64,000 nt of DNA, from NCBI RefSeq assembly GCF_006874465.1, contig NZ_VIRL01000010.1:1-64000 (forward strand). Reading direction: 5' to 3'. Under the pieces are notes generated by a model that was given only the letters and a program-made list of their open reading frames with translations, did not search any database and was not told where the DNA came from. The stretch is from Microbispora bryophytorum (GTDB taxonomy: Bacteria; Actinomycetota; Actinomycetes; Streptosporangiales; Streptosporangiaceae). Made by a program: the position numbers and the translations under genes. The first letter of the stretch is position 1; every line of letters begins with the position of its first letter. Shown here one piece after another: positions 5,321 through 55,083 of this stretch.

Positions 5321-5965
5321 TCACGAGACGGCGCCCTCAGAGGGCACCTGGCGGGCGCTGCGCACCACGTGGTCGATGAAGCCGTAGTCCTTGGCCTCCT
5401 CGGCCGTGAACCAACGGTCCCGGTCGGAGTCACGCTCGATCTGATCGAGCGGCTGGCCGGTGTGGAAGGCGATCCGCTCCGCGAGCGTCTTCTTCACGTA
5501 GAGCATCTGCTCGGCCTGGATCGCGATGTCGGCCGCGGTGCCGCCGATGCCGCCCGACGGCTGGTGCATCATGATCCTGGCGTGCGGAAGCGCGTACCGC
5601 TTGCCGCGTGCGCCGGCACAGAGCAGGAACTGCCCCATGGAGGCGGCCAGGCCCATGGCGACCGTGCAGACGTCGTTCGGCACGTACTCCATCATGTCGT
5701 AGATCGCCATGCCGGCGGTCACCGAGCCACCCGGAGAGTTGATGTACATCCAGATGTCGCGGTCCGGGTCATCGGCGGCGAGGAGCAGGAGCTCAGCGGC
5801 CAGCCGGTTGGCCACATCGTCGTTGACCTGGGTGCCGAGCACCACAATCCGCTCACGCAACAGGCGCTGGTAGAGCTGGTCCTCGAGGCGGGAGGGGCCA
5901 CCCTCCGGGCTCCGGGCCTCGAAGCCGGAACCATCGGTCGGGAAGAAGGTCGGCGGGCTGGTCAC
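5321..5965 (-). CDS. clpP1: ATP-dependent Clp protease proteolytic subunit ClpP1
   Basis: First gene of the clpP1-clpP2 operon. About 214 residues from the GTG at 5965, preceded by GGAAGG at 7 bases. Upstream in-frame codons to 6070 look non-coding. The catalytic serine is in [14 protein letters not shown], the histidine in [12 protein letters not shown], and the aspartate in [18 protein letters not shown]. Two different ClpP subunits that must co-assemble are the rule in actinobacteria. A ClgR-type box lies about 90 bases upstream. Confidence 0.96.
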
Positions 5966-6053
5966 AGCGTCACCTTCCGATGCGTCGAAATCGATTGGCT
6001 TTGCTTGTGACCTTAACGCGCGACGCAGACAGGTCATGCCCGTGCGCCGTACT

Positions 6054-6067
6054 GTTCGCTGACGGCG
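6054..6067. promoter_or_regulatory. candidate ClgR box upstream of clpP1
   Basis: The sequence GTTCGC-TGACG-GCG matches the GTTCGC-N5-GCG motif described for the actinobacterial regulator ClgR, which activates clpP1P2. It lies about 90 bases before the clpP1 start. clgR itself is not in the window. Confidence 0.6.
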
Positions 6068-6265
6068 CATGCCCGGCTCGCGGCGGGGGCCCGCACCGCA
6101 CTGCTCGGGTTTCCCGTCGTGGCCGCACGGCCGGGGGCACAGGGATCTCGGCCGTGCGATTACTCCCCGTCACGCGGCAAGAAACAACTTTGCAGGGATT
6201 TACCCGTATATAACCGGAAACCCCCGGCGCACCCGAGTGCGACGGGGGTTCCACCATCACCACCA

Positions 6266-6293
6266 CGCCGACCGGCCTCCCGGCCGGTCGGCG
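6266..6293 (-). terminator. terminator of tig
   Basis: Perfect 12-base stem (CGCCGACCGGCC and its complement) with a TCCC loop, 27 bases after the tig stop. The remainder of the 5966-6320 gap holds the clpP1 upstream region and no further gene that I can see. Confidence 0.7.
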
Positions 6294-6320
6294 GCAGAGG
6301 TCAGGCGAGAGCCTGGGAAC

Positions 6321-7715
6321 TCAGCTCTGCTCGGCCTCGTCGGCGGGCTCCCCGACGCCCGCCTCCTCCACGCCCACAGCCTCCTGCTCGGGGTTGAGCT
6401 CGGCGTAGATGGCCTTCACGTCCACGTCGTTGCCGGCCGTGTCGGTCACCTTGGCCGCGTCTCCGACGAGGGTCTTGGCCTTCTCGCGCACGATCTCCAT
6501 CATCGCCAGCGGGAGCTGGTTGTTGTCGGCGAGGTGCTGGGCCAGCGTGTTCGGCGCGACGTTCATCTGCATGGCGCGGCGCACCACGAAGTCGGTCAGC
6601 TCCTGCTCGCTGACACCGATCTCCTCCGCATTGACGATCTTGTCGAGCACGAAGCCGGACTTCAGCGCCTTGGCCGAGGTCGCCTCGTATTCGGCGAACA
6701 GCTCCTCCTCGGTGGTCTGCTGGAGGCGGAGGTACGCCTCGCGGCTCAGGCCGCTCTCGGCGACCTGGTGCTCGAGGTTGTGCTTGCGCGCGTCGATCTC
6801 CGCCTGGAGCGCGCTCTCGGGCAGCGGGATGTCGATCCTGTCGAGCAGCGCGTCGAGGGCCTTCTCGCGGCTCTGCACGACCTGGTCCACCAGCTTGTTG
6901 CGGCGAACCTGCTGCCGGATGCTGTCCTTGAGCTCGTCGAGCGTGTCGAACTCGCTGGCGAGCTGCGCGAACTCGTCGTCGAGCTCGGGCAGCACCTTCT
7001 CCTTGACCGACTTGACGTTGATGATCACGTCGGCCTCCTCGCCGGCGTTCTCACCACCGACGAGCGTGGTGCGGAAGGTCTTCTCGTCGCCGGCGGTCAT
7101 GCCCTCCAGCGCGTCGTCCAGGCCCTCCAGGACCGAGCCCGCGCCGACCTCGTACGACACGTCGGCGGCCTGCTGCTCGTCGAGGTTGCGGCCGTCGATC
7201 TCGGCGCGCAGGTCCATCACGACGTAGTCGCCGTTCTGGGCCGGCCGCTCGACACCGGCCAGCGTCGCGAAACGCTGGCGCAGGGCCTCGATCTGGGCGG
7301 CGATGTCCTCGTCGGTCACCTCGGCGGGGTCGACCACGACCTCGGCGCCCTGGTAGTCCGGGACGTCGAAGGCGGGACGGATGTCCACCTCGGCGGTGAA
7401 CTCGACCTGCTCACCGTCCTCGATCTTGGTGACCTCGATCTCCGGCTGGCTGACCGGGAAGACCTCAGTCTCGTCCACGGCCTGGCCGTACAGTTTGGGC
7501 AGCGCGTCGTTCAGGGTCTCCTCGAGAACCACCGCGCGGCCGAAGCGCTGCTCGATGATCCGGGCCGGCACCTTGCCAGGGCGGAAGCCGGGCACGCGCA
7601 CCTGCTGCGCGACCTTCTTGTACGCGGCCTGCAGGCTCGGCTCGAGCTCCTTGAATGGCACCTCGACGGTGAGCTTGACCCGGGTAGGGCTGAGCTCCTC
7701 GACAGCGGTCTTCAC
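6321..7715 (-). CDS. tig: trigger factor, ribosome-associated chaperone and prolyl isomerase
   Basis: Binds nascent chains at the ribosome exit tunnel and has peptidyl-prolyl isomerase activity. 464 residues. The N-terminal ribosome-binding loop signature GFRPGKVP is seen as VPGFRPGKVPARII near residue 40. An FKBP-type middle domain (about 155-245) contains NGDYVVMDLRAEIDG and the C-terminal helical arms follow. The tail is acidic. The GTG at 7715 (AAGGAG upstream) gives the family N-terminus (VKTAVEELSPTRVKLTVEVPF). The frame upstream to 7850 is arginine-rich and not part of the protein. Confidence 0.97.
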   Translation of the reverse strand: MKTAVEELSPTRVKLTVEVPFKELEPSLQAAYKKVAQQVRVPGFRPGKVPARIIEQRFGRAVVLEETLNDALPKLYGQAVDETEVFPVSQPEIEVTKIEDGEQVEFTAEVDIRPAFDVPDYQGAEVVVDPAEVTDEDIAAQIEALRQRFATLAGVERPAQNGDYVVMDLRAEIDGRNLDEQQAADVSYEVGAGSVLEGLDDALEGMTAGDEKTFRTTLVGGENAGEEADVIINVKSVKEKVLPELDDEFAQLASEFDTLDELKDSIRQQVRRNKLVDQVVQSREKALDALLDRIDIPLPESALQAEIDARKHNLEHQVAESGLSREAYLRLQQTTEEELFAEYEATSAKALKSGFVLDKIVNAEEIGVSEQELTDFVVRRAMQMNVAPNTLAQHLADNNQLPLAMMEIVREKAKTLVGDAAKVTDTAGNDVDVKAIYAELNPEQEAVGVEEAGVGEPADEAEQS

Positions 7716-47648: not shown

Positions 47649-48497
47649 TCAGCGCGGGAAGATGACGGTCTTGTGGCCGTCCAGCAGCACGCGGTGCTCG
47701 GCGTGCCAGCGGACGGCCCGGGCCAGCGCCTGACATTCGAGGTCACGGCCGATCGCGGCGAGGTCCTCATGTGAGTGGGTGTGGTTCACCCGCGCGACCT
47801 CCTGCTCGATGATCGGCCCCTCGTCGAGGTCGGGCGTCACGTAGTGCGCCGTGGCGCCGATCACCTTCACGCCCCGGGAGTACGCCTGGTGGTACGGCTT
47901 GGCGCCCTTGAACGACGGCAGGAACGAATGGTGGATGTTGATCATGCGCCCGGCGAGCTTGGCGCACATCTCCGGTGAGATCACCTGCATGTAGCGGGCG
48001 AGCACGACCAGATCGGCCTGGTAGTGGTCGACCAGCGTGAGGATCTCCTCCTCCTGCCGCGGCTTGGTGTCCGCGGTGACCGGCAGGTGGTGGTAGTCGA
48101 CGCCGTACGACTGGGTGAGGGGACGCAGGTCGGGGTGGTTGGACGCGACGCCCACGATCTCGATGGGCAGCAGGCCCGAGCGCACCCGGTAGAGCATGTC
48201 GTTGAGGCAGTGGTCGAACCGGCTGACGAGCACCAGCGCCCGCGTCCGCACGGAGAGGTCGAAGAGCTGGAACTCCATGGCGAACTCCGACGCGAGCGAG
48301 GCGAACGCCGCTCGCAACTCGTCGACCGCGCTCCCGCCGGAGAACTGCACGCGCATGAAGAACCGCTCCTCGACCGGATCGCCGAACTGCTGGCTCTCGA
48401 TGATGTTGCAGCCCTTCCCGGCCAGCAGCCCGGAGACGGCCGCGACCACTCCGGGCCGGTCCGGGCAGGACAGGGTCAGCACAAATTCAGCGCTCAT
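47649..48497 (-). CDS. purU: formyltetrahydrofolate deformylase
   Basis: 282 residues. Hydrolyses 10-formyl-THF to THF and formate, balancing one-carbon pools. ACT domain (about 5-85, VLTLSCPDRPGVVAAVSG) followed by the formyltransferase fold with the catalytic residues in INIHHSFLPSFKGAKPYHQA and TPDLDEGPIIEQEV. The ATG at 48497 is the normal start; the frame stays open far upstream only because of the G+C content. The leader has a 15-base direct repeat. Confidence 0.95.
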   Translation of the reverse strand: MSAEFVLTLSCPDRPGVVAAVSGLLAGKGCNIIESQQFGDPVEERFFMRVQFSGGSAVDELRAAFASLASEFAMEFQLFDLSVRTRALVLVSRFDHCLNDMLYRVRSGLLPIEIVGVASNHPDLRPLTQSYGVDYHHLPVTADTKPRQEEEILTLVDHYQADLVVLARYMQVISPEMCAKLAGRMINIHHSFLPSFKGAKPYHQAYSRGVKVIGATAHYVTPDLDEGPIIEQEVARVNHTHSHEDLAAIGRDLECQALARAVRWHAEHRVLLDGHKTVIFPR

Positions 48498-48519
48498 GCT
48501 CAGATCCTCGACGGGGGAC

Positions 48520-48635
48520 GGTGTCGGCTTCAAGGGTGTCGGCTTCAAGGGTAGGGCTAGCCGGTCGGAGAGTGCGGACAGGCGGAGGCGGGGCGGCGGA
48601 CGACCGGCTGATCGGTTTGACCGGCTGATCGGCTT
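48520..48635. repeat. short direct repeats in the purU leader
   Basis: A 15-base unit GGTGTCGGCTTCAAG occurs twice in tandem (48520-48549). A 17-base unit GACCGGCTGATCGGYTT occurs twice in tandem (48602-48635). Both lie in the gap between the TPR gene and purU and contain TTGA(A/C) strings on the minus strand. Confidence 0.6.
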
Positions 48636-48679
48636 GACCGCTGACTGGCCGCCCGCCCGCTGTGAGCGTCCCCCGCGTG

Positions 48680-50689
48680 TCAGCCCTCCTTGTCGTGCCG
48701 CTCCAGCGCCGCGCCCACGTCGGGGTCGTCGGGAGCCAGCGCCGACGCCCGGCGCAGGTCGGCCAGCGCCTCCTGGCCCCGGCCGAGCGCGTCGAGCGCG
48801 GTCGCCCGGTTGAAGTACAGGGCCGCGTCCTCGCCCAGCTCGATCGCCCTGGTCAGGTCGTCGACGGCGCCCCGCGCGTCGCCGGTCTCGAACCGCAGGG
48901 TCGCCCGGTTGGCCCAGGCCGAGGCCAGGCGCGCGTCGGCGGCCAGCGCCGCGTCGAAGGCCAGGGCGGCCTCCGCGTAGCGGCCCGCCTCGGTCTCCAG
49001 CTGCCCGAGCACGCCGTGCAGGTGCGCGTTGCCGGGGTCGAGGGCGAGCCCCGCCTCGACGTCGCGCCTGGCGGCCTCGTGCTCGCCGAGCATCTCCAGC
49101 ACACCGGCCCGGTTGACGTACGCGTCGAGAAAACCGGGGTCGAGGTCGAGCACGTGGTCGAGGTCGGCCCGGGCGCCGTCCAGGTCCGCGCCGGCCAGGC
49201 GCAGCTCCGCCCGGTTGTAGTACGCCTCGGGCAGCGGCGGGCTCACCCGAATCGCCGTCTCGTAGTCGGCCAGCGCCTCGTCCGTGCGTCCCATCTCCAG
49301 CAGCAGGTTGCCCCGGTCGAGATAGTGGTCGGGGAAGCCCGGGTCGATCGCGACGGCGCGGTCGAAGTCGGCCAGCGCCTCCTCCTTGCGGCCCGTCCGC
49401 GCGAGGAGCTGCGCGCGGTTGGCGAACAGCACCATCCGGTGCACGGGGTGGGCGTCCGGAGGGAGGTCGCGCTCGGCCAGGTCGATGGCCGAGCGCACCA
49501 GGCCGAGTGCCTCGTCGATGCGACCCTCCCGCAGCTCGATCAGCGCGCGGCCGTTCTGGTCGAACCCGAGTTTGAAGGCGCGCGTCCGCCGGTCGGGAAG
49601 CAGTGTGGAGATCGCTATCGCCTCGTTGATCCAGGCTCTGGCCCTGGCCAGGTCGCGCCGCGCCGGATCGCGGTCGCGCGCATCGAGCATCGCCGTTCCG
49701 TACGCGGCGGCGGCGTGCACGGCCGGATCGACGCTGATCCTCCGGGCCTGGTCGTACAGCTCCTGCGCGTGCGCCCGCCGGCCCAGCCCCGCCAGGGCGG
49801 TCGCGGTGCGGTGGGTGAAGCGCCACCACAGGTCGGAACCCGGCGACACCCGCCGCAGGCCGCGCGAGCCCAGCTCCACGACCGCGTGCAGGAGACCCTC
49901 GGTGACGCAGTGGTCCACCGCCGCCCACAGGGCCCGCGCCGCGGCGTCCGGGTCGCCGCCGTGCTCCAGGTGGTAGGGCACCGCGCCCAGAGCGTGCTCC
50001 GGCGCCGCGGCGTCGGCCGTCAGCTCGGCGGCGCGCCGGTCGTGCCGGCGCGCCCGTTCCTCCGGCGGCAGCGACAGGTACGCCCGGTAGGAGCGGGGGT
50101 CGTCGGAGGTGCAGTCCGAGACGACGTAGTCGTCGGGCGGACCGCCCTGGGCCGGGGCCTCCACCAGTCGCGTGGCCTCCCATTGGGGCTCCGCGGAGGC
50201 CAGGGCCAGCGTCAGATCCGGCACCCGGCGCGCCAGGACGCCCAGCAGCTCGCGGTCGGCCGGATCCGCCTCGTGCAGGTTGTCGACCAGCAGCGTCCGC
50301 GGCCCGTCGAGGCAGTCGCGGACGAACTCGGCGATCCCGTTGGCGATCCGCAGCGTGCGGCGCGGCGCGGGCACGAGGATCCGCTCGTCCTCCGTCAGGC
50401 GGGCCTCGACGGTCTGCCGCCGCGCCGGCACCAGAGGGCGCAGGCTGGGAGCGACGGCGCGGATCTCGATGTCGTGTTCCGCCACCAGGCCCGGGGAACG
50501 CTCCAGGGCGACCGGAACGAGGGCGCGCAGGATCGCGCCACCGATCGTGTACGGACCGCGTAACCGGCGGTGCCCGTTGACGACGGGCGCCACAGGAGGC
50601 GGCACCTCCAGGACAAGCGCTCGGAGGGCCGCCAGGCGGTCCCGGGAGAGATCCCCCCGGACCCAGATGTGGCTCGGGTGGTCCCTCAC
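48680..50689 (-). CDS. TPR protein with degenerate STAND/AAA-like N-terminal region
   Basis: 669 residues. About residues 1-260 look like a worn ATPase: a Walker-B-like line RTLLVDNLHEADPADRELLGVL is present, but no P-loop GxxGxGK is found where GPYTIGGAILRAL occurs. The rest (about 280-660) is a run of tetratricopeptide repeats (for example EALADFDRAVAIDPGFPDHY and GARADLDHVLDLDPGFLDAY). The GTG start overlaps the stop of a 24-codon gene (GTGA), so the two are translationally coupled. Probable scaffold or peptide-binding role; function not known. Confidence 0.82.
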   Translation of the reverse strand: MRDHPSHIWVRGDLSRDRLAALRALVLEVPPPVAPVVNGHRRLRGPYTIGGAILRALVPVALERSPGLVAEHDIEIRAVAPSLRPLVPARRQTVEARLTEDERILVPAPRRTLRIANGIAEFVRDCLDGPRTLLVDNLHEADPADRELLGVLARRVPDLTLALASAEPQWEATRLVEAPAQGGPPDDYVVSDCTSDDPRSYRAYLSLPPEERARRHDRRAAELTADAAAPEHALGAVPYHLEHGGDPDAAARALWAAVDHCVTEGLLHAVVELGSRGLRRVSPGSDLWWRFTHRTATALAGLGRRAHAQELYDQARRISVDPAVHAAAAYGTAMLDARDRDPARRDLARARAWINEAIAISTLLPDRRTRAFKLGFDQNGRALIELREGRIDEALGLVRSAIDLAERDLPPDAHPVHRMVLFANRAQLLARTGRKEEALADFDRAVAIDPGFPDHYLDRGNLLLEMGRTDEALADYETAIRVSPPLPEAYYNRAELRLAGADLDGARADLDHVLDLDPGFLDAYVNRAGVLEMLGEHEAARRDVEAGLALDPGNAHLHGVLGQLETEAGRYAEAALAFDAALAADARLASAWANRATLRFETGDARGAVDDLTRAIELGEDAALYFNRATALDALGRGQEALADLRRASALAPDDPDVGAALERHDKEG

Positions 50690-50760
50690 CCCTTGTGGAT
50701 CACGCTCGCGGTGCCGCTGAGCTTGGTCGTCCCCGGCTTACGGATAATGATCTTCTTCAT
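50686..50760 (-). CDS. putative 24-residue basic peptide, coupled to the TPR gene
   Basis: A 25-codon reading frame begins MKKIIIRKPGTT and ends SVIHKG. It has seven basic and no acidic residues, and no signal peptide. AGAGG lies 4 bases before the ATG. The TGA stop overlaps the GTG start of the TPR gene by four bases, a classic coupling arrangement. Upstream, 80 bases away, is a GNAT acetyltransferase and before it an HTH-TPR regulator on the same strand. It could be a peptide signal or the precursor of a modified peptide. Too short for domain calls, so it rests on context. Confidence 0.5.
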   Translation of the reverse strand: MKKIIIRKPGTTKLSGTASVIHKG

Positions 50761-50840
50761 CACGCCTCTTTCCCCACTCTTGTGGACAAGGCACAAGTAT
50801 TCGCAGGGATCAGCTATCCGCCAAGGGATGGAAGCATTAT

Positions 50841-51407
50841 CTATCGGGAGAAAAGCGGAGAGACTACGGCATTCAGCTGCTTCTCGATATAAATCACCAC
50901 ATTCTCACCGCGCACCTCGCGCCGCAGCTCCCGCCAGCCGGATTTGCGATAGAGCTCCAGCGCGGCGACCTGACGCAGGGTGGTGTCACCGCGCAACGTC
51001 CGGTAGCCGAGCCGGCTCGCCCGATCCTCAAGCTCCTGCGCGATCCGGGCGCCGTAGCCGCGCCGCTGATGATCGGGGTGGACCCGGAGCCGGCACATCT
51101 CCGCCGTGTCGGCGTCGATACGGCGCAGGCCGCCCATCGCCACGAGCCCCGCCCCGGACACCTCGCCCACCAGGAAGTCACCCCCCGCGGCCAGGTAGAC
51201 CTCGGTGATCCGGGGGAAGTCGTCGTCGTAGTAGACGCCGTCACCCGGCACGACGCCCACCTGGGCCAGGCCGACCTGATGGAGGGACCACACCGCGTCG
51301 AGGTCGGACCACCGGTACCGCCGGATCCTCAGCGGTGCCGTCCTGCTCTGCCCGCCCCTCACGGGATCTCCCGGCTCGAGATCTCCCGCCAGCGCGTCTC
51401 CTGCCAC
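50841..51407 (-). CDS. GNAT family N-acetyltransferase
   Basis: 188 residues. The acetyl-CoA-binding segment is MCRLRVHPDHQRRGYGARIAQELEDRA, followed by TLRQVAALELYRKSGWRELRR. The GTG at 51407 has GAGGAGGA just upstream and lies 21 bases after the stop of the HTH-TPR gene, so they share a transcript. Its substrate is unknown; the coupled peptide gene downstream is a possible target. Confidence 0.87.
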   Translation of the reverse strand: MAGDALAGDLEPGDPVRGGQSRTAPLRIRRYRWSDLDAVWSLHQVGLAQVGVVPGDGVYYDDDFPRITEVYLAAGGDFLVGEVSGAGLVAMGGLRRIDADTAEMCRLRVHPDHQRRGYGARIAQELEDRASRLGYRTLRGDTTLRQVAALELYRKSGWRELRREVRGENVVIYIEKQLNAVVSPLFSR

Positions 51408-51428
51408 ACGTCCTCCTCGGTACCCACG

Positions 51429-53018
51429 TCACCCGACGTCACGGAGCAGCTCCGGCGGGATCTCGACCCGGCTCTGCTTGATCACCTCGCAGAAGGCCTG
51501 GAGCCGGGGCGAGTCGCCGTGCTTGGCCCTGACCTCCTTCACCAGGTCGTACGCCGGTTTGAGCAGCAGGTCGGTCCGGTAGTCCTTGTCGACGAGCTCG
51601 ATGGCCTCCTGACCCAGCTTGAGCGCCGCATCGACGTCGCCGTCGATGAGCCGGCACATCGCCCGGTCGAACCGGATCAGGGTCTGGTCGAGCAGGTCCT
51701 CATCCGTGTACTTGTCGAGCGCCTGCTGCAGGACGACGTCGGCCTCCACCGTCTGCCCCAGCTTCACCAGGACGTCGCCCTGGTAGAAGTAGAGCTGCCG
51801 CTCGGTGTAGCCGAACGCCGGATCCTCCCGGTCGCTGTCGTTCATCTGCTGGAAAGCCGCCCTGGCGCGATGCAGGGCCCGCTTGGCCTGCTCGACCACC
51901 TCGTGCCGCGAGCCGTTGACACCGGCGATCTTCGCCAGCGCCCTCGCCTCGACGACGGGCGCCATGGCCCGCGCGGCACAGGGGGTGTGGCCGGCCAGGT
52001 CGCGGCTCTTCTTCGCCAGCGTGAGCGCCTCGCGCGGGTCGCCGTAGTAGAGCGGGACCAGCGCCTCCCGGGCGGTGACCCAGGCCCGCAGGGCCCGATC
52101 GCCGGTCTCATCCGCCGCCATCCGGCCCGTACGGAAGAACGACCGGGCCATCCGCTGGTCCCCGAGGTCGATCATGATCATCCCCGAGAGCCCGGCGAGC
52201 TGGGCGGCCATCCGGCACAGCCGCTCCTGCACGTCGATGGGCTGCCGTCGGTCCAGGGCCTTGCGCACAGCGGTGAACTCCAGCATGACGTCGCAGAGCA
52301 GCCGTACGGGCGGGGTGTTCATGTACTGCCGCCCGAAGCCGAATGTGGCCTGCTCCCACTGGTCCAGCATCGCCGGCGAGACGGTGGCCATGACCATCGT
52401 CTCGTCCATGCGCCGGCGGAGGTTCTCCACCGCGCCGAGCACCTCTTCGTTGAGCTCCTTGAGCCCAGCCGCCCCGACGGTGCCGCCGGCGAGGAGCCTC
52501 AACAGCGTCCTCCGTAGCACGTTCTCGTCCTCCTCGCCCCCGTCCACCGGATGGGTGCCGCCGCCCGACGGGGCCGGCGCGCCCCACGGAGCGGGTGAAG
52601 TGATGGGTCTGTCCTGTTCAGGAGCACCGCCACCTGATTCGGCCAGGTGTCCGTGGCCGCAGATGCACGGGCTTTCGAACCCCAGGGCCGGGGGTTCCAC
52701 CCGGTAGACCGAGCACAGGTAGTGGAGATACTCCGGGCCGGGCCGCTTCATGCCCGACTCGTACGCGGACAGTAGCGTCTCGCCGATGCCGGGGACGGCC
52801 TTTCCGTCTCTCTCGAAGAGCGCACGCACCTGCTCGATCACGTCGGCGAGCGCCACACCGTGTGAGAGGCGATGCGCCTTGATCCGAGTCGTGCCGAACT
52901 GCGCTCCACAGTCGTCGTGGATCTCCTTGGCGATCTCGGCCAGGCTGCGCCCGGCTGCCAGGCCTCGCGCCCGGATCCGGCGCGCGGTCTCCGTCTCTCT
53001 GTGTTGCCTGCCGGACAT
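51429..53018 (-). CDS. helix-turn-helix regulator with TPR domain
   Basis: 529 residues. N-terminal DNA-binding part (about 1-110; IGETLLSAYESGMKRPGPEYLHYLCSVYRV) has a helix-turn-helix of the Cro/XRE kind, followed by a proline-rich linker (about 125-160) with a possible metal-binding CICGHGH. The C-terminal 340 residues are helical repeats of TPR type (YYGDPREALTLAKKSRDLAG; EADVVLQQALDKYTDEDLL). The arrangement recalls peptide-responsive RRNPP regulators, but this larger form is typical of actinomycetes. First gene of the operon with GNAT, peptide and TPR protein. Start at 53018, GAGAGGGG upstream. Confidence 0.88.
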   Translation of the reverse strand: MSGRQHRETETARRIRARGLAAGRSLAEIAKEIHDDCGAQFGTTRIKAHRLSHGVALADVIEQVRALFERDGKAVPGIGETLLSAYESGMKRPGPEYLHYLCSVYRVEPPALGFESPCICGHGHLAESGGGAPEQDRPITSPAPWGAPAPSGGGTHPVDGGEEDENVLRRTLLRLLAGGTVGAAGLKELNEEVLGAVENLRRRMDETMVMATVSPAMLDQWEQATFGFGRQYMNTPPVRLLCDVMLEFTAVRKALDRRQPIDVQERLCRMAAQLAGLSGMIMIDLGDQRMARSFFRTGRMAADETGDRALRAWVTAREALVPLYYGDPREALTLAKKSRDLAGHTPCAARAMAPVVEARALAKIAGVNGSRHEVVEQAKRALHRARAAFQQMNDSDREDPAFGYTERQLYFYQGDVLVKLGQTVEADVVLQQALDKYTDEDLLDQTLIRFDRAMCRLIDGDVDAALKLGQEAIELVDKDYRTDLLLKPAYDLVKEVRAKHGDSPRLQAFCEVIKQSRVEIPPELLRDVG

Positions 53019-53354
53019 CCCGGCCCCTCTCTCGTGGCCGGCCGCACTCGCAGCCCGTGGTCTCGAGCGGTCCTCACCTCGTGACGGAGAGTGACTTACT
53101 CGTCGCGCTCCGACCACACCATAATGATGGACCATAGTTGGCGCGGCCAAGCCCCCAACTTGAACGCGCCGACTAAGGATCGTCCCCCGATAGGGGTTTT
53201 CTTTCAACTGACACGGGTTTTCCTCCACCACAGCGGCTTGTCGCCCTCGTTGACCCGAGCACTTCTGTGAGCCATCTTTGGCGCACCAGAGTGAACAGGC
53301 GGAGACGGAAAGTACACATTCCATCCGCGAACGGGAAATGAAGGAGGACCTACG
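53019..53354. promoter_or_regulatory. divergent promoter region
   Basis: 335 bases between the HTH-TPR gene and a small gene on the other strand, with lower G+C than the flanks. It contains the direct repeat ACCATAATG/ACCATAGTT (around 53117-53140) near the regulator start and TTGAAC ... TAAGGAT strings for the plus strand (around 53160-53180). No gene seen. It probably holds both promoters and the regulator's own sites. Confidence 0.45.
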
Positions 53355-53615
53355 GTGGGGGAGGACGATTTCCGGCATCTGGAACATTTGGTGGCCGAAC
53401 TTGATGCGCGGGGCCTGCTCGCGCGAGTCGTTCGCACCCCGTCGGGCCGCGCCTACGTACGCGTGATCAATCCCGACGCGACGAGCCTCACGGAGAACGT
53501 CGTCTGCCAGGCGGCCGACTACTGGTGGTCCTGGGGTGAACGGATGCACCGGGCCGACGACCCCGCCGGAGCGGCCACGAAGGTGGCCCGCGTGCTTGCC
53601 GCGGTGAGCGAGTAG
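53355..53615 (+). CDS. hypothetical protein, 86 residues
   Basis: Small soluble protein with FRHLEHLVAELDARGLLARVV, VINPDATSLTENVVCQAADYWWSWGERMH and a helical end. It has AAGGAGG 7 bases before the GTG start. Small proteins of this type often lie divergent to HTH-TPR regulators in actinomycetes, so it may be a target or partner of the regulator. No known function. Confidence 0.75.
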   Translation: MGEDDFRHLEHLVAELDARGLLARVVRTPSGRAYVRVINPDATSLTENVVCQAADYWWSWGERMHRADDPAGAATKVARVLAAVSE

Positions 53616-54072
53616 GGGAAGGCGGCGGCCCGGGTGACGGTGAAGTCGCCGTGGCCGCCGCATCCACCGCGGCCTCAGGGGGCGGGCAGGACGCCCGGTG
53701 CGGAGCGTGGCCGTCGTGCCGCCCCGGCGCGACGGCTGTGCTGCGGCGTCCCGCCCGCCCCGACCCCGTCCGCGTCCCGCGGGCGGGCCGACCGGCTCGC
53801 CGGTCGGCATCGACCGCCGTCCGGCCCCGTCGAGCAGGTGGGGCCGGACGGTGATCGAGGGGATCCCCGCTTGGAGAACGGCGCCGGGCGCGCTTCCGGG
53901 TGCGCGCCCGCGCCCTGCCACACCGTCACTGGAGCGTGTCCGGTCCGCCCTCCGCGGCCCCGGACGGGACGCGTTCCCGTCTTCCCCGGCGATGTGACGG
54001 AGGCCGGATCAGTCGGCAGTATTGGCTACGTTCATGACCTGCCGTTGAACCGATCCAAGGGGGATCCACCTC
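53616..54072. other. intergenic stretch without recognised gene
   Basis: 457 bases, very G+C-rich in the first 300. An open frame (53634-54161) overlaps the MscS gene and looks like chance. The last 60 bases contain a plausible promoter and the AAGGGGGA ribosome-binding site of the MscS gene. Confidence 0.5.
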
Positions 54073-55083
54073 GTGTTACCACTGTCGCCCGCGACGCCCA
54101 CCCCAGCGCCGACCGTGCCGGATCTCGATGTGATCGGCCAGCAGGTGGCAAAGGCGTGTGACAACAACGACGGCATCTTCTGCACCGTCCTGAACAGCAC
54201 CTTCCCGGAGAAGGACTTCCCCGCCTGGGTGCAGCTCGTGGCGGGCATCGTGGACGTGCTGCTGCTGATCGCCCTCATCCTGGCCGGAGCGCTGGTCGTC
54301 CGGAACGTCGTGCACCGGCTGATCACCCGGCTCACCGTGCGGGCCAGCGTCGGCGTCCTGCCGGAACGGCTGCGCGGCAAGAGCGTGCTGACGAGCACGG
54401 AGGCCGCGGCGGCGATCATGACGGAGCGCCGCAGGGCACGCGCCGAGACGATGGGCTCGGTGCTGCGGAGCCTCGCGTCCGTCGTGATCCTGGGCACCGC
54501 GGCGTTGATGGTCTTCGCGAAGCTCGGGGTCGAGCTGGCGCCGCTGCTCACGAGCGTCGGCATCATCGGTGTGGCGGTCGGCTTCGGCGCCCAGGAGCTG
54601 GTCAAGGACTTCATCGCCGGCATGTTCATGCTCCTGGAGGACCAGTACGGCGTGGGCGACGTGATCGACACCGGGGTGGCCGTCGGCACGGTGGAGGCCG
54701 TCACGCTCCGCATCACCCGCCTGCGCGATGCCGACGGCAAGGTCTGGTACGTGCGCAACGGCACGATCACCCGCATCGGCAACGAGTCGCAGGGCTGGTC
54801 GAGGGCTCTGGTGGACGTGCCGGTGCCGTACGACAGCGACGTGGCGACGGTCCGCGAACTGCTCAACGGCCTCGCACACGACATGTGGGAGGACCCGGAC
54901 TACCGGGACACGGTCATCGTCGAGGAGCCGCAGGTCTTCGGCCTTGAGTCGGTCTCGGGCTCGTCCGTCATCTTCCGGATCAGCGCGAAGACCGTGCCCG
55001 CGCGGCACCTGGAGGTCGCCCGGGAGCTGCGCCTTCGGGTGAAGCGGGCCTTCGACGACAAGAGCCTCGTCTTCGCGGCCTGA
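54073..55083 (+). CDS. mechanosensitive channel of the MscS family
   Basis: 336 residues. Membrane segments at about 55-77 (VAGIVDVLLLIALILAGALVV) and 140-180, then the pore helix (TSVGIIGVAVGFGAQELVKDFIAGMFMLLEDQYGVGDVI), which is the MscS signature, and the cytoplasmic beta/alpha domain. It opens under membrane tension to release solutes. The N-terminus is short and extracellular. The start is GTG at 54073 with AAGGGGGA upstream. Confidence 0.9.
   Translation: MLPLSPATPTPAPTVPDLDVIGQQVAKACDNNDGIFCTVLNSTFPEKDFPAWVQLVAGIVDVLLLIALILAGALVVRNVVHRLITRLTVRASVGVLPERLRGKSVLTSTEAAAAIMTERRRARAETMGSVLRSLASVVILGTAALMVFAKLGVELAPLLTSVGIIGVAVGFGAQELVKDFIAGMFMLLEDQYGVGDVIDTGVAVGTVEAVTLRITRLRDADGKVWYVRNGTITRIGNESQGWSRALVDVPVPYDSDVATVRELLNGLAHDMWEDPDYRDTVIVEEPQVFGLESVSGSSVIFRISAKTVPARHLEVARELRLRVKRAFDDKSLVFAA

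Follow-up and report, generated by a model that had tools for sequence, protein, structure and literature searches.

The subject of this report is a very small gene in a 64,000-nucleotide stretch of Microbispora bryophytorum DNA (contig NZ_VIRL01000010.1, positions 1 to 64,000, referred to below as the window). The gene encodes a peptide (50686..50760, minus strand) and is followed by the gene for a tetratricopeptide repeat (TPR) protein of 669 amino acids (48680..50689, minus strand, GTG start). We find that the two make up a two-gene module, a partnership shown by their occurrence. In the explanation that we put forward the TPR protein is STAND-like and the peptide is its intracellular partner, held in the TPR superhelix, and we give this an even chance of being correct. 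It is in any event a clear-cut example, found in many actinomycete genera, of a tiny protein that is under selection and has an evident partner gene.

The peptide gene is real and under selection at the protein level. It has an ATG start, 24 codons and a TGA stop, and its product is MKKIIIRKPGTTKLSGTASVIHKG. The list of open reading frames offers a longer version from a TTG start (36 aa), but conservation starts at the ATG. The loci discussed below fall into three classes, and for the class of the window (class 1) the ratio of nonsynonymous to synonymous change (pN/pS) is 0.26 in the peptide frame; the two other frames give 1.49 and 1.60. The set used for this comparison comprises 35 distinct class-1 sequences chosen by their IHKG ending; it covers every one of the 37 class-1 loci that were fetched and have the TPR gene in cis, and leaves out the loci without a TPR gene. 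The frame is intact in all 37, and no case was found among them of its loss where the TPR and GNAT genes are kept. A chance open reading frame is ruled out by the pN/pS ratio and by recurrence upstream of TPR homologues. The peptide has no match among the Pfam and NCBIfam models. An earlier account of the window, made from the letters and their reading frames and referred to below as the sequence-only reading, had called the peptide purely basic. Basic it is, with a net charge of +6 and no acidic residue, but it also has hydrophobic, Gly, Ser and Thr residues.

One part of that account is borne out: the small gene is conserved in relatives and goes together with the TPR gene that follows it. 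We fetched 60 TPR loci, picked from the list of TPR homologues, and looked for a family peptide up to 1.7 kb upstream on the same strand. It is present in 59 of them (57 by pattern, L083 by eye and L084 by a profile match), L078 being the sole locus without one. At L076 a predicted gene on the opposite strand sits between peptide and TPR gene. A second, named set consists of the best 80 of 362 candidate relatives (41 class-1, 25 class-2 and 14 class-3 loci), and 79 of these have the family peptide upstream of the TPR gene, the exception being the class-2 locus L224 with none in cis. The two sets share many contigs and their counts are not additive. Weak peptide matches were found at 15 loci, of which L106, L107 and L108 (genomes G208, G289 and G427) are family peptides, while most of the others lie inside other frames or have no start; the reading of these matches took in neither L112, L114 and L116 nor three matches without a locus. 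One Actinomadura locus (L232) has two family peptides, about 1.2 kb and about 0.1 kb upstream of the TPR match.

The partnership is also seen at the level of whole genomes. Among 200 genomes of the family, with thresholds of E 1e-20 for the TPR protein and E 0.01 for the peptide, the TPR protein is found in 95, the peptide in 94 and both in 93. The two genomes that appear to have only the TPR protein (G013 and G032) carry a family peptide after all on reading, and the sole peptide-only match (G002) reads as no family peptide. Four genomes with weak TPR matches (G046, G131, G167 and G181, E about 1e-4 to 1e-5) were left out of the count. In two genomes the pair is split between separate places (L078 and L135 in G016, L176 and L136 in G051). 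A plasmid search gave one weak partial match. In the window the peptide gene and the TPR gene overlap by four bases, the stop codon of the one and the start codon of the other forming GTGA, and such a 4-base overlap is present at 34 of the 37 class-1 loci, taking the starts as called.

With regard to the three classes, in the tree of TPR proteins each is set off from the rest by a branch (support 99, 99 and 100 by the Shimodaira-Hasegawa-like approximate likelihood ratio test). This tree has 83 rows and is unrooted; it was made by a quick method with that support measure only, and the truncated L248 was left out. L224 is placed in class 2 though it has no peptide in cis, and long branches were flagged for L121, L122, L123, L239 and L255. 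Class-1 peptides are usually of the form ...RKPG...IHKG, usually overlap the start of the TPR gene and are at loci with a helix-turn-helix (HTH)-TPR gene and a GNAT gene. The C-terminal IHKG is found in the peptides of all 37 fetched loci of this class where the TPR gene lies in cis, and at 40 of the 41 named ones, with IHQG in L225. Class-2 peptides are usually of the form ...VHKPGTV.L.GAAS.KH.. and are encoded elsewhere in the genome, where a gap separates the peptide from the TPR gene; the neighbouring genes vary among the four loci read (L067, L070, L073 and L079). Class-3 peptides mostly begin MKKIxVRKAGxVRLT and have variable tails (for example CSIYKNPN, NSLYAPFSCWPF and SAAASCYCGGTPVLA). 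Here the peptide is followed by a protein of some 400 to 440 aa, which has the fold of a recognition element (RRE) of the kind known from ribosomally synthesised and post-translationally modified peptides (RiPPs) and an HExxH motif, and the TPR gene comes after it. Some class-3 tails are rich in cysteine, namely CYCYGCCCCGGRAAI, SCYCGGTPVLA, SCYCGGGPVLA and SAYCCGTGPVLA in L121 (G208), L226, L236 and L244.

Classes 1 and 2 are limited, in the named set, to what we take to be Streptosporangiales, and the class-3 genera in that set are Streptomyces, Kitasatospora, Actinacidiphila, Streptacidiphilus, Catenulispora, Lentzea and some Streptosporangiaceae. Because class 3 has the wider range, the simpler reading is that the RRE-HExxH protein would have been lost in the lineage of the window. 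The window peptide and the RiPP-precursor-like peptides of class 3 are one family, but class 1 is without a variable core.

The class-1 overlap, together with a leader that is able to fold (see below), would also be expected if the small frame acted only in cis, coupling or attenuating translation of the TPR gene. We consider this very unlikely, as the amino-acid sequence has been kept while synonymous sites changed, peptides are also found away from the TPR gene, the pair is split in the two genomes mentioned, and the distance to the TPR start is about 1.3 to 1.7 kb in class 3 and mostly tens to hundreds of bases in class 2.

The structural model of the TPR protein is confident (mean pLDDT 95.8). 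By the order of its elements the N-terminal 200 residues are STAND/AAA-like, with a weak match to AAA_16 (E 0.0076, below the cut-off). The P-loop position is occupied by HRRLRGPYT. All 50 homologues compared have its Gly-Pro, and just before the P-loop threonine, in the place of the P-loop lysine, all 50 have Tyr or Phe. The C-terminal part is a TPR superhelix, matched by TPR families and with the TPR domain of O-GlcNAc transferase (OGT) as best fold match (1w3b, Foldseek E 2.3e-13). Five asparagines (N379, N424, N492, N526 and N627) do not vary among the 50 homologues aligned, and the net charge is -24 for the protein and -19 for its TPR part, as against the +6 of the peptide. The likeness to OGT is in the TPR part only, in the superhelix fold and the ladder of conserved asparagines, whereas family scans gave no glycosyltransferase match for the window protein. 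The asparagine ladder of OGT binds the peptide backbone, according to the passages available of PMC10618255. Whole-protein scans with Pfam and NCBIfam likewise found no HTH, DNA-binding or phosphatase domain. A phage or defence family (PHROGs, PADLOC) was ruled out, since the matches fall within the TPR repeats.

There is also some likeness to the AfsR-type SARP regulators, described as SARP-NOD-TPR in the part of PMC10936776 that was available. The window protein has, on our reading, a nucleotide-binding-like domain followed by TPRs, and a BTAD and NB-ARC protein adjoins the class-3 locus L086. It differs in having no SARP domain and in the Tyr or Phe before the P-loop threonine. The neighbours at L086 are a flavin oxidoreductase (Oxidored_FMN) and this divergent BTAD/NB-ARC regulator, and L082, L124 and L125 have a similar layout by eye.

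Binding or sensing of the peptide by the downstream TPR protein is the best reading of the module. The peptide would be made in step with the TPR protein through the coupling of their genes, and the superhelix would hold it extended in an acidic groove lined by asparagines. The loaded protein would then act inside the cell as a regulator or scaffold, with its loading state as the signal, and in the clusters that carry the RRE protein it may hand the peptide on to the RRE-HExxH protein.

Loci that have kept the peptide without the TPR gene bear on this. At seven syntenic loci the peptide frame is kept and the TPR gene is absent, and departures at otherwise conserved positions are found in six of these seven as against 4 of the 37 with the TPR gene (Fisher p 0.0002, uncorrected for kinship and with position 7 and the start codon not counted). 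Position 7 is H in all seven and R in 36 of the 37, H being the usual residue in class 2. At L128 the peptide frame extends six residues further. The comparison suggests that the peptide sequence depends on the TPR partner. Four more peptide loci have no TPR gene in cis (L126, L132, L135 and L136).

Several points have to be set against the peptide being held by its TPR neighbour. Peptide binding, the groove and the regulatory output are things that we infer, and asparagine at this helix position is frequent in TPR consensus sequences. There are 11 loci that keep a family peptide with no TPR gene in cis, and the peptides may thus have other partners or be in decay; a TPR homologue is found elsewhere in each of the genomes concerned. 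The shift from R to H at position 7 is seen in two of two supported independent pairs on the locus tree, which is too few to test, and L182, a class-1 peptide with its TPR gene, has H7 too. At the 13 class-2 loci where the peptide is close by, about 29 to 168 bases separate it from the TPR gene and there is no overlap, again with starts as called. As to history, the view that the RRE-HExxH protein was lost here, and not gained elsewhere, would rest on the wider range of class 3, the tree being unrooted.

The solitary G051 peptide at L136 follows a different small TPR-type gene (5494-6555, 353 aa, by eye), which may be another partner for the peptide. A gene that looks by eye like ftsY is near the peptide or TPR gene at L126, L132, L073, L090 and L176, the neighbourhood at L090 being judged from upstream DNA only.

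The sequence-only reading had proposed a quorum-type signal. A secreted pheromone, unacetylated, would be exported, cut, re-imported and sensed by the TPR protein as in the RRNPP families. A small gene adjoining the gene for a TPR protein would fit with this, as would the strongly conserved IHKG at the C-terminus of class-1 peptides, and the class-3 HExxH protein would parallel Eep, which is M50-like. In the sections available of PMC9765709, Eep is mentioned as an enzyme that might take the place of signal peptidases in the Rgg, ComR and PrgX systems. But the peptide has by eye no signal-peptide-like stretch, the loci whose gene lists were read have no transporter gene in common, the scans found no DNA-binding or phosphatase domain in the TPR protein, and the coupled translation in class 1 favours use of the peptide in the same cell. 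We regard a secreted signal as improbable, and this part of the earlier proposal is not supported. RRNPPA systems have been reported from Firmicutes, nearly all of them Bacilli, in a survey that covered Firmicutes (PMC9765709, in the sections available). The window locus resembles them in having a small peptide gene that adjoins the gene for a TPR protein that may bind the peptide, and differs in that the TPR protein is actinobacterial, with no HTH or effector domain found, and that no secretion signal is seen by eye. On present evidence the peptide-TPR pair is probably not an RRNPP member, yet it may work like a peptide receptor.

The RRE-HExxH protein of class 3 was modelled with a mean pLDDT of 76.8. 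Its N-terminal part has three strands and three helices, and in a Foldseek search it matched TbiB1 with its leader peptide at a probability of 1.00 but an E value of 0.07; further RRE matches were to a lasso B1 protein with leader peptide, TigE and SkfB, and none was at E 0.001 or better. The rest of the protein is helical and membrane-like, with HE..H invariant in 15 of 15 rows and a later invariant Asp. Pfam scans of four such proteins gave at most M50, in one of them, at E 0.12. Membrane M50 proteases are present in RiPP pathways, TglG, TmoG and EpeP being examples in the excerpts available of PMC10885120. The class-3 loci resemble RiPP precursor and protease systems in their peptides with a constant N-terminal part and variable tails, in a predicted RRE-fold domain beside these short precursor-like peptides and in the membrane-like HExxH protein, and the arrangement of genes can be called RiPP-like. 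These clusters, in Streptomyces and Lentzea for instance, are a lead for new RiPP chemistry.

The window locus has neither an RRE protein nor a known modifying enzyme, its peptide is without a variable core, and a TPR protein accompanies the peptide; by the test of the locus it is not a RiPP system, having no RRE protein. No RRE-HExxH match (E 1e-5) was found at any of the 37 fetched class-1 loci, and by reading only, no known modifying enzyme was seen in the gene lists of a few of them. In a bolder reading, which we hold tentatively and think somewhat unlikely, peptides that were once RiPP precursors now serve as ligands inside the cell, the leader-like part being the signal read by a pseudo-STAND TPR protein and position 7 (R or H) helping to set the fit to two TPR classes. 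If this were so, actinomycetes would have a peptide-receptor pair of a new kind, and the class-3 clusters would form a new class of RiPPs, one with a TPR protein as partner. As a RiPP-like precursor family is here linked to a regulator-like TPR protein, the fate of a leader-like peptide without its enzyme is open to experiment.

The genome of the window has two distant homologues of the RRE-HExxH protein elsewhere (L165 and L166, on contigs C49 and C54 of G000). The one at L165 has a ThiF-family gene nearby, this being the sole one whose neighbour was scanned, and it gives a weak match to the daptide HExxH model (E 2.3e-7, 30.3 bits, cut-off 300). Upstream of both are short precursor-like frames of another type, with a TIRLLDKIETT or SIRLLDRIETT stretch. 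It could be argued from these homologues, and from the N-terminal motif that the window peptide shares with the class-3 precursors, that the window peptide remains a RiPP precursor and undergoes its processing in trans, with the TPR protein as a chaperone or immunity factor. But the distant homologues have their own, different small frames, the class-1 C-terminus is nearly constant, and the pair is found with no homologue at E 1e-10 in G058, G095, G015, G044 and G033 (four candidates scored per genome). We think processing in trans unlikely, and L165 and L166 are probably another, separate peptide-modification system. More RRE-HExxH homologues with small upstream frames were seen at L167, L169, L170, L173 and L174, the frame at L170 being MKKLVVRKLEPIKTSANADCVPAAA and that at L167 holding MKKLIVRRLESVKTSAATSCSVVVA; these are perhaps related precursor families.

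Upstream of the pair, on the same strand, are the genes for a GNAT acetyltransferase (50841..51407, minus strand) and an HTH-TPR protein (51429..53018, minus strand). The layout of four genes with gaps of 21, 80 and -4 bases is as described in the sequence-only reading, which saw in them one system that makes and perhaps acetylates a peptide sensed by one of the TPR proteins. The GNAT gene is indeed a regular neighbour in class 1: a match is found upstream within about 2.4 kb at all 37 fetched loci and in the fetched stretch of 38 of the 41 named ones (L243 and L248 are cut by contig ends), and GNAT and peptide stay together at the seven loci without the TPR gene. But in the fetched stretches neither a GNAT nor an HTH-TPR match is present at any of the 39 named loci of the other classes (25 class-2 and 14 class-3), nor at 23 class-2 and class-3 loci among L067-L090. 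The class-1 locus L198 (Spongiactinospora rosea) has HTH-TPR, peptide and TPR genes with no GNAT gene between, and is thus a natural GNAT deletion. The genes also occur apart: GNAT (E 1e-25) is in 105 of the 200 genomes, 17 of these 105 have no strong TPR match, and 7 of the 95 TPR genomes have no GNAT. At L064 and L066 there is about 1.5 kb extra between GNAT and peptide.

The class-2 and class-3 loci, L198 and the separate occurrence across genomes rule out GNAT as part of the module, and for the same reasons we judge GNAT and HTH-TPR to be old neighbours of one lineage only of the peptide-TPR pair. As GNAT is dispensable to the pair, acetylation of the peptide is left without support, and we give hardly any chance to a system in which GNAT acetylates the peptide and the acetyl state is sensed. 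The upstream HTH-TPR protein had been likened to RRNPP regulators; it is an NsdA-family TPR-like regulator (NF053720, 152 bits, cut-off 75) and the likeness is not borne out. Overall, what survives of the sequence-only reading is the conserved peptide tied to a TPR gene, and the four-gene system and the secreted signal are not supported. It knew of no described system with this set, and Pfam, NCBIfam, PHROGs, PADLOC and literature searches gave none among the matches listed. Six sequence stretches of the peptide family had no occurrence in a text search of the literature, and "M50" and "TPR" are absent from the passages available of PMC12710340 and PMC7470986.

A known RNA family at the locus was ruled out, as Rfam gave no match at the gathering threshold in 48000-55000 of the window. 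In the gap between GNAT and peptide genes there is a promoter-like TTGGCG-N17-AATACT (50796..50824, minus strand), from a best-match scan without chance control. For 15 of the 37 class-1 loci the scan gave TTGGCG-N17-(A/G)ATACT as best match; the others have weaker or different matches, apart from L049 and L051 with none. It is followed by a 5' leader of 35 bases (50761..50795, minus strand) with a ribosome-binding-like stretch, GGGGAAAGAGG, and a predicted hairpin (-11.8 kcal/mol, folded without shuffle control). With this element and a foldable leader before it, the peptide gene may have its own promoter, and peptide and TPR genes may share a transcript of their own. The closest named relatives are Microbispora species (Streptosporangiaceae), the TPR protein of M. 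catharanthi being 94% identical. A leader hairpin is also predicted in many other class-1 loci (L043, L048, L052 and L062 among them), despite sequence change between genera.

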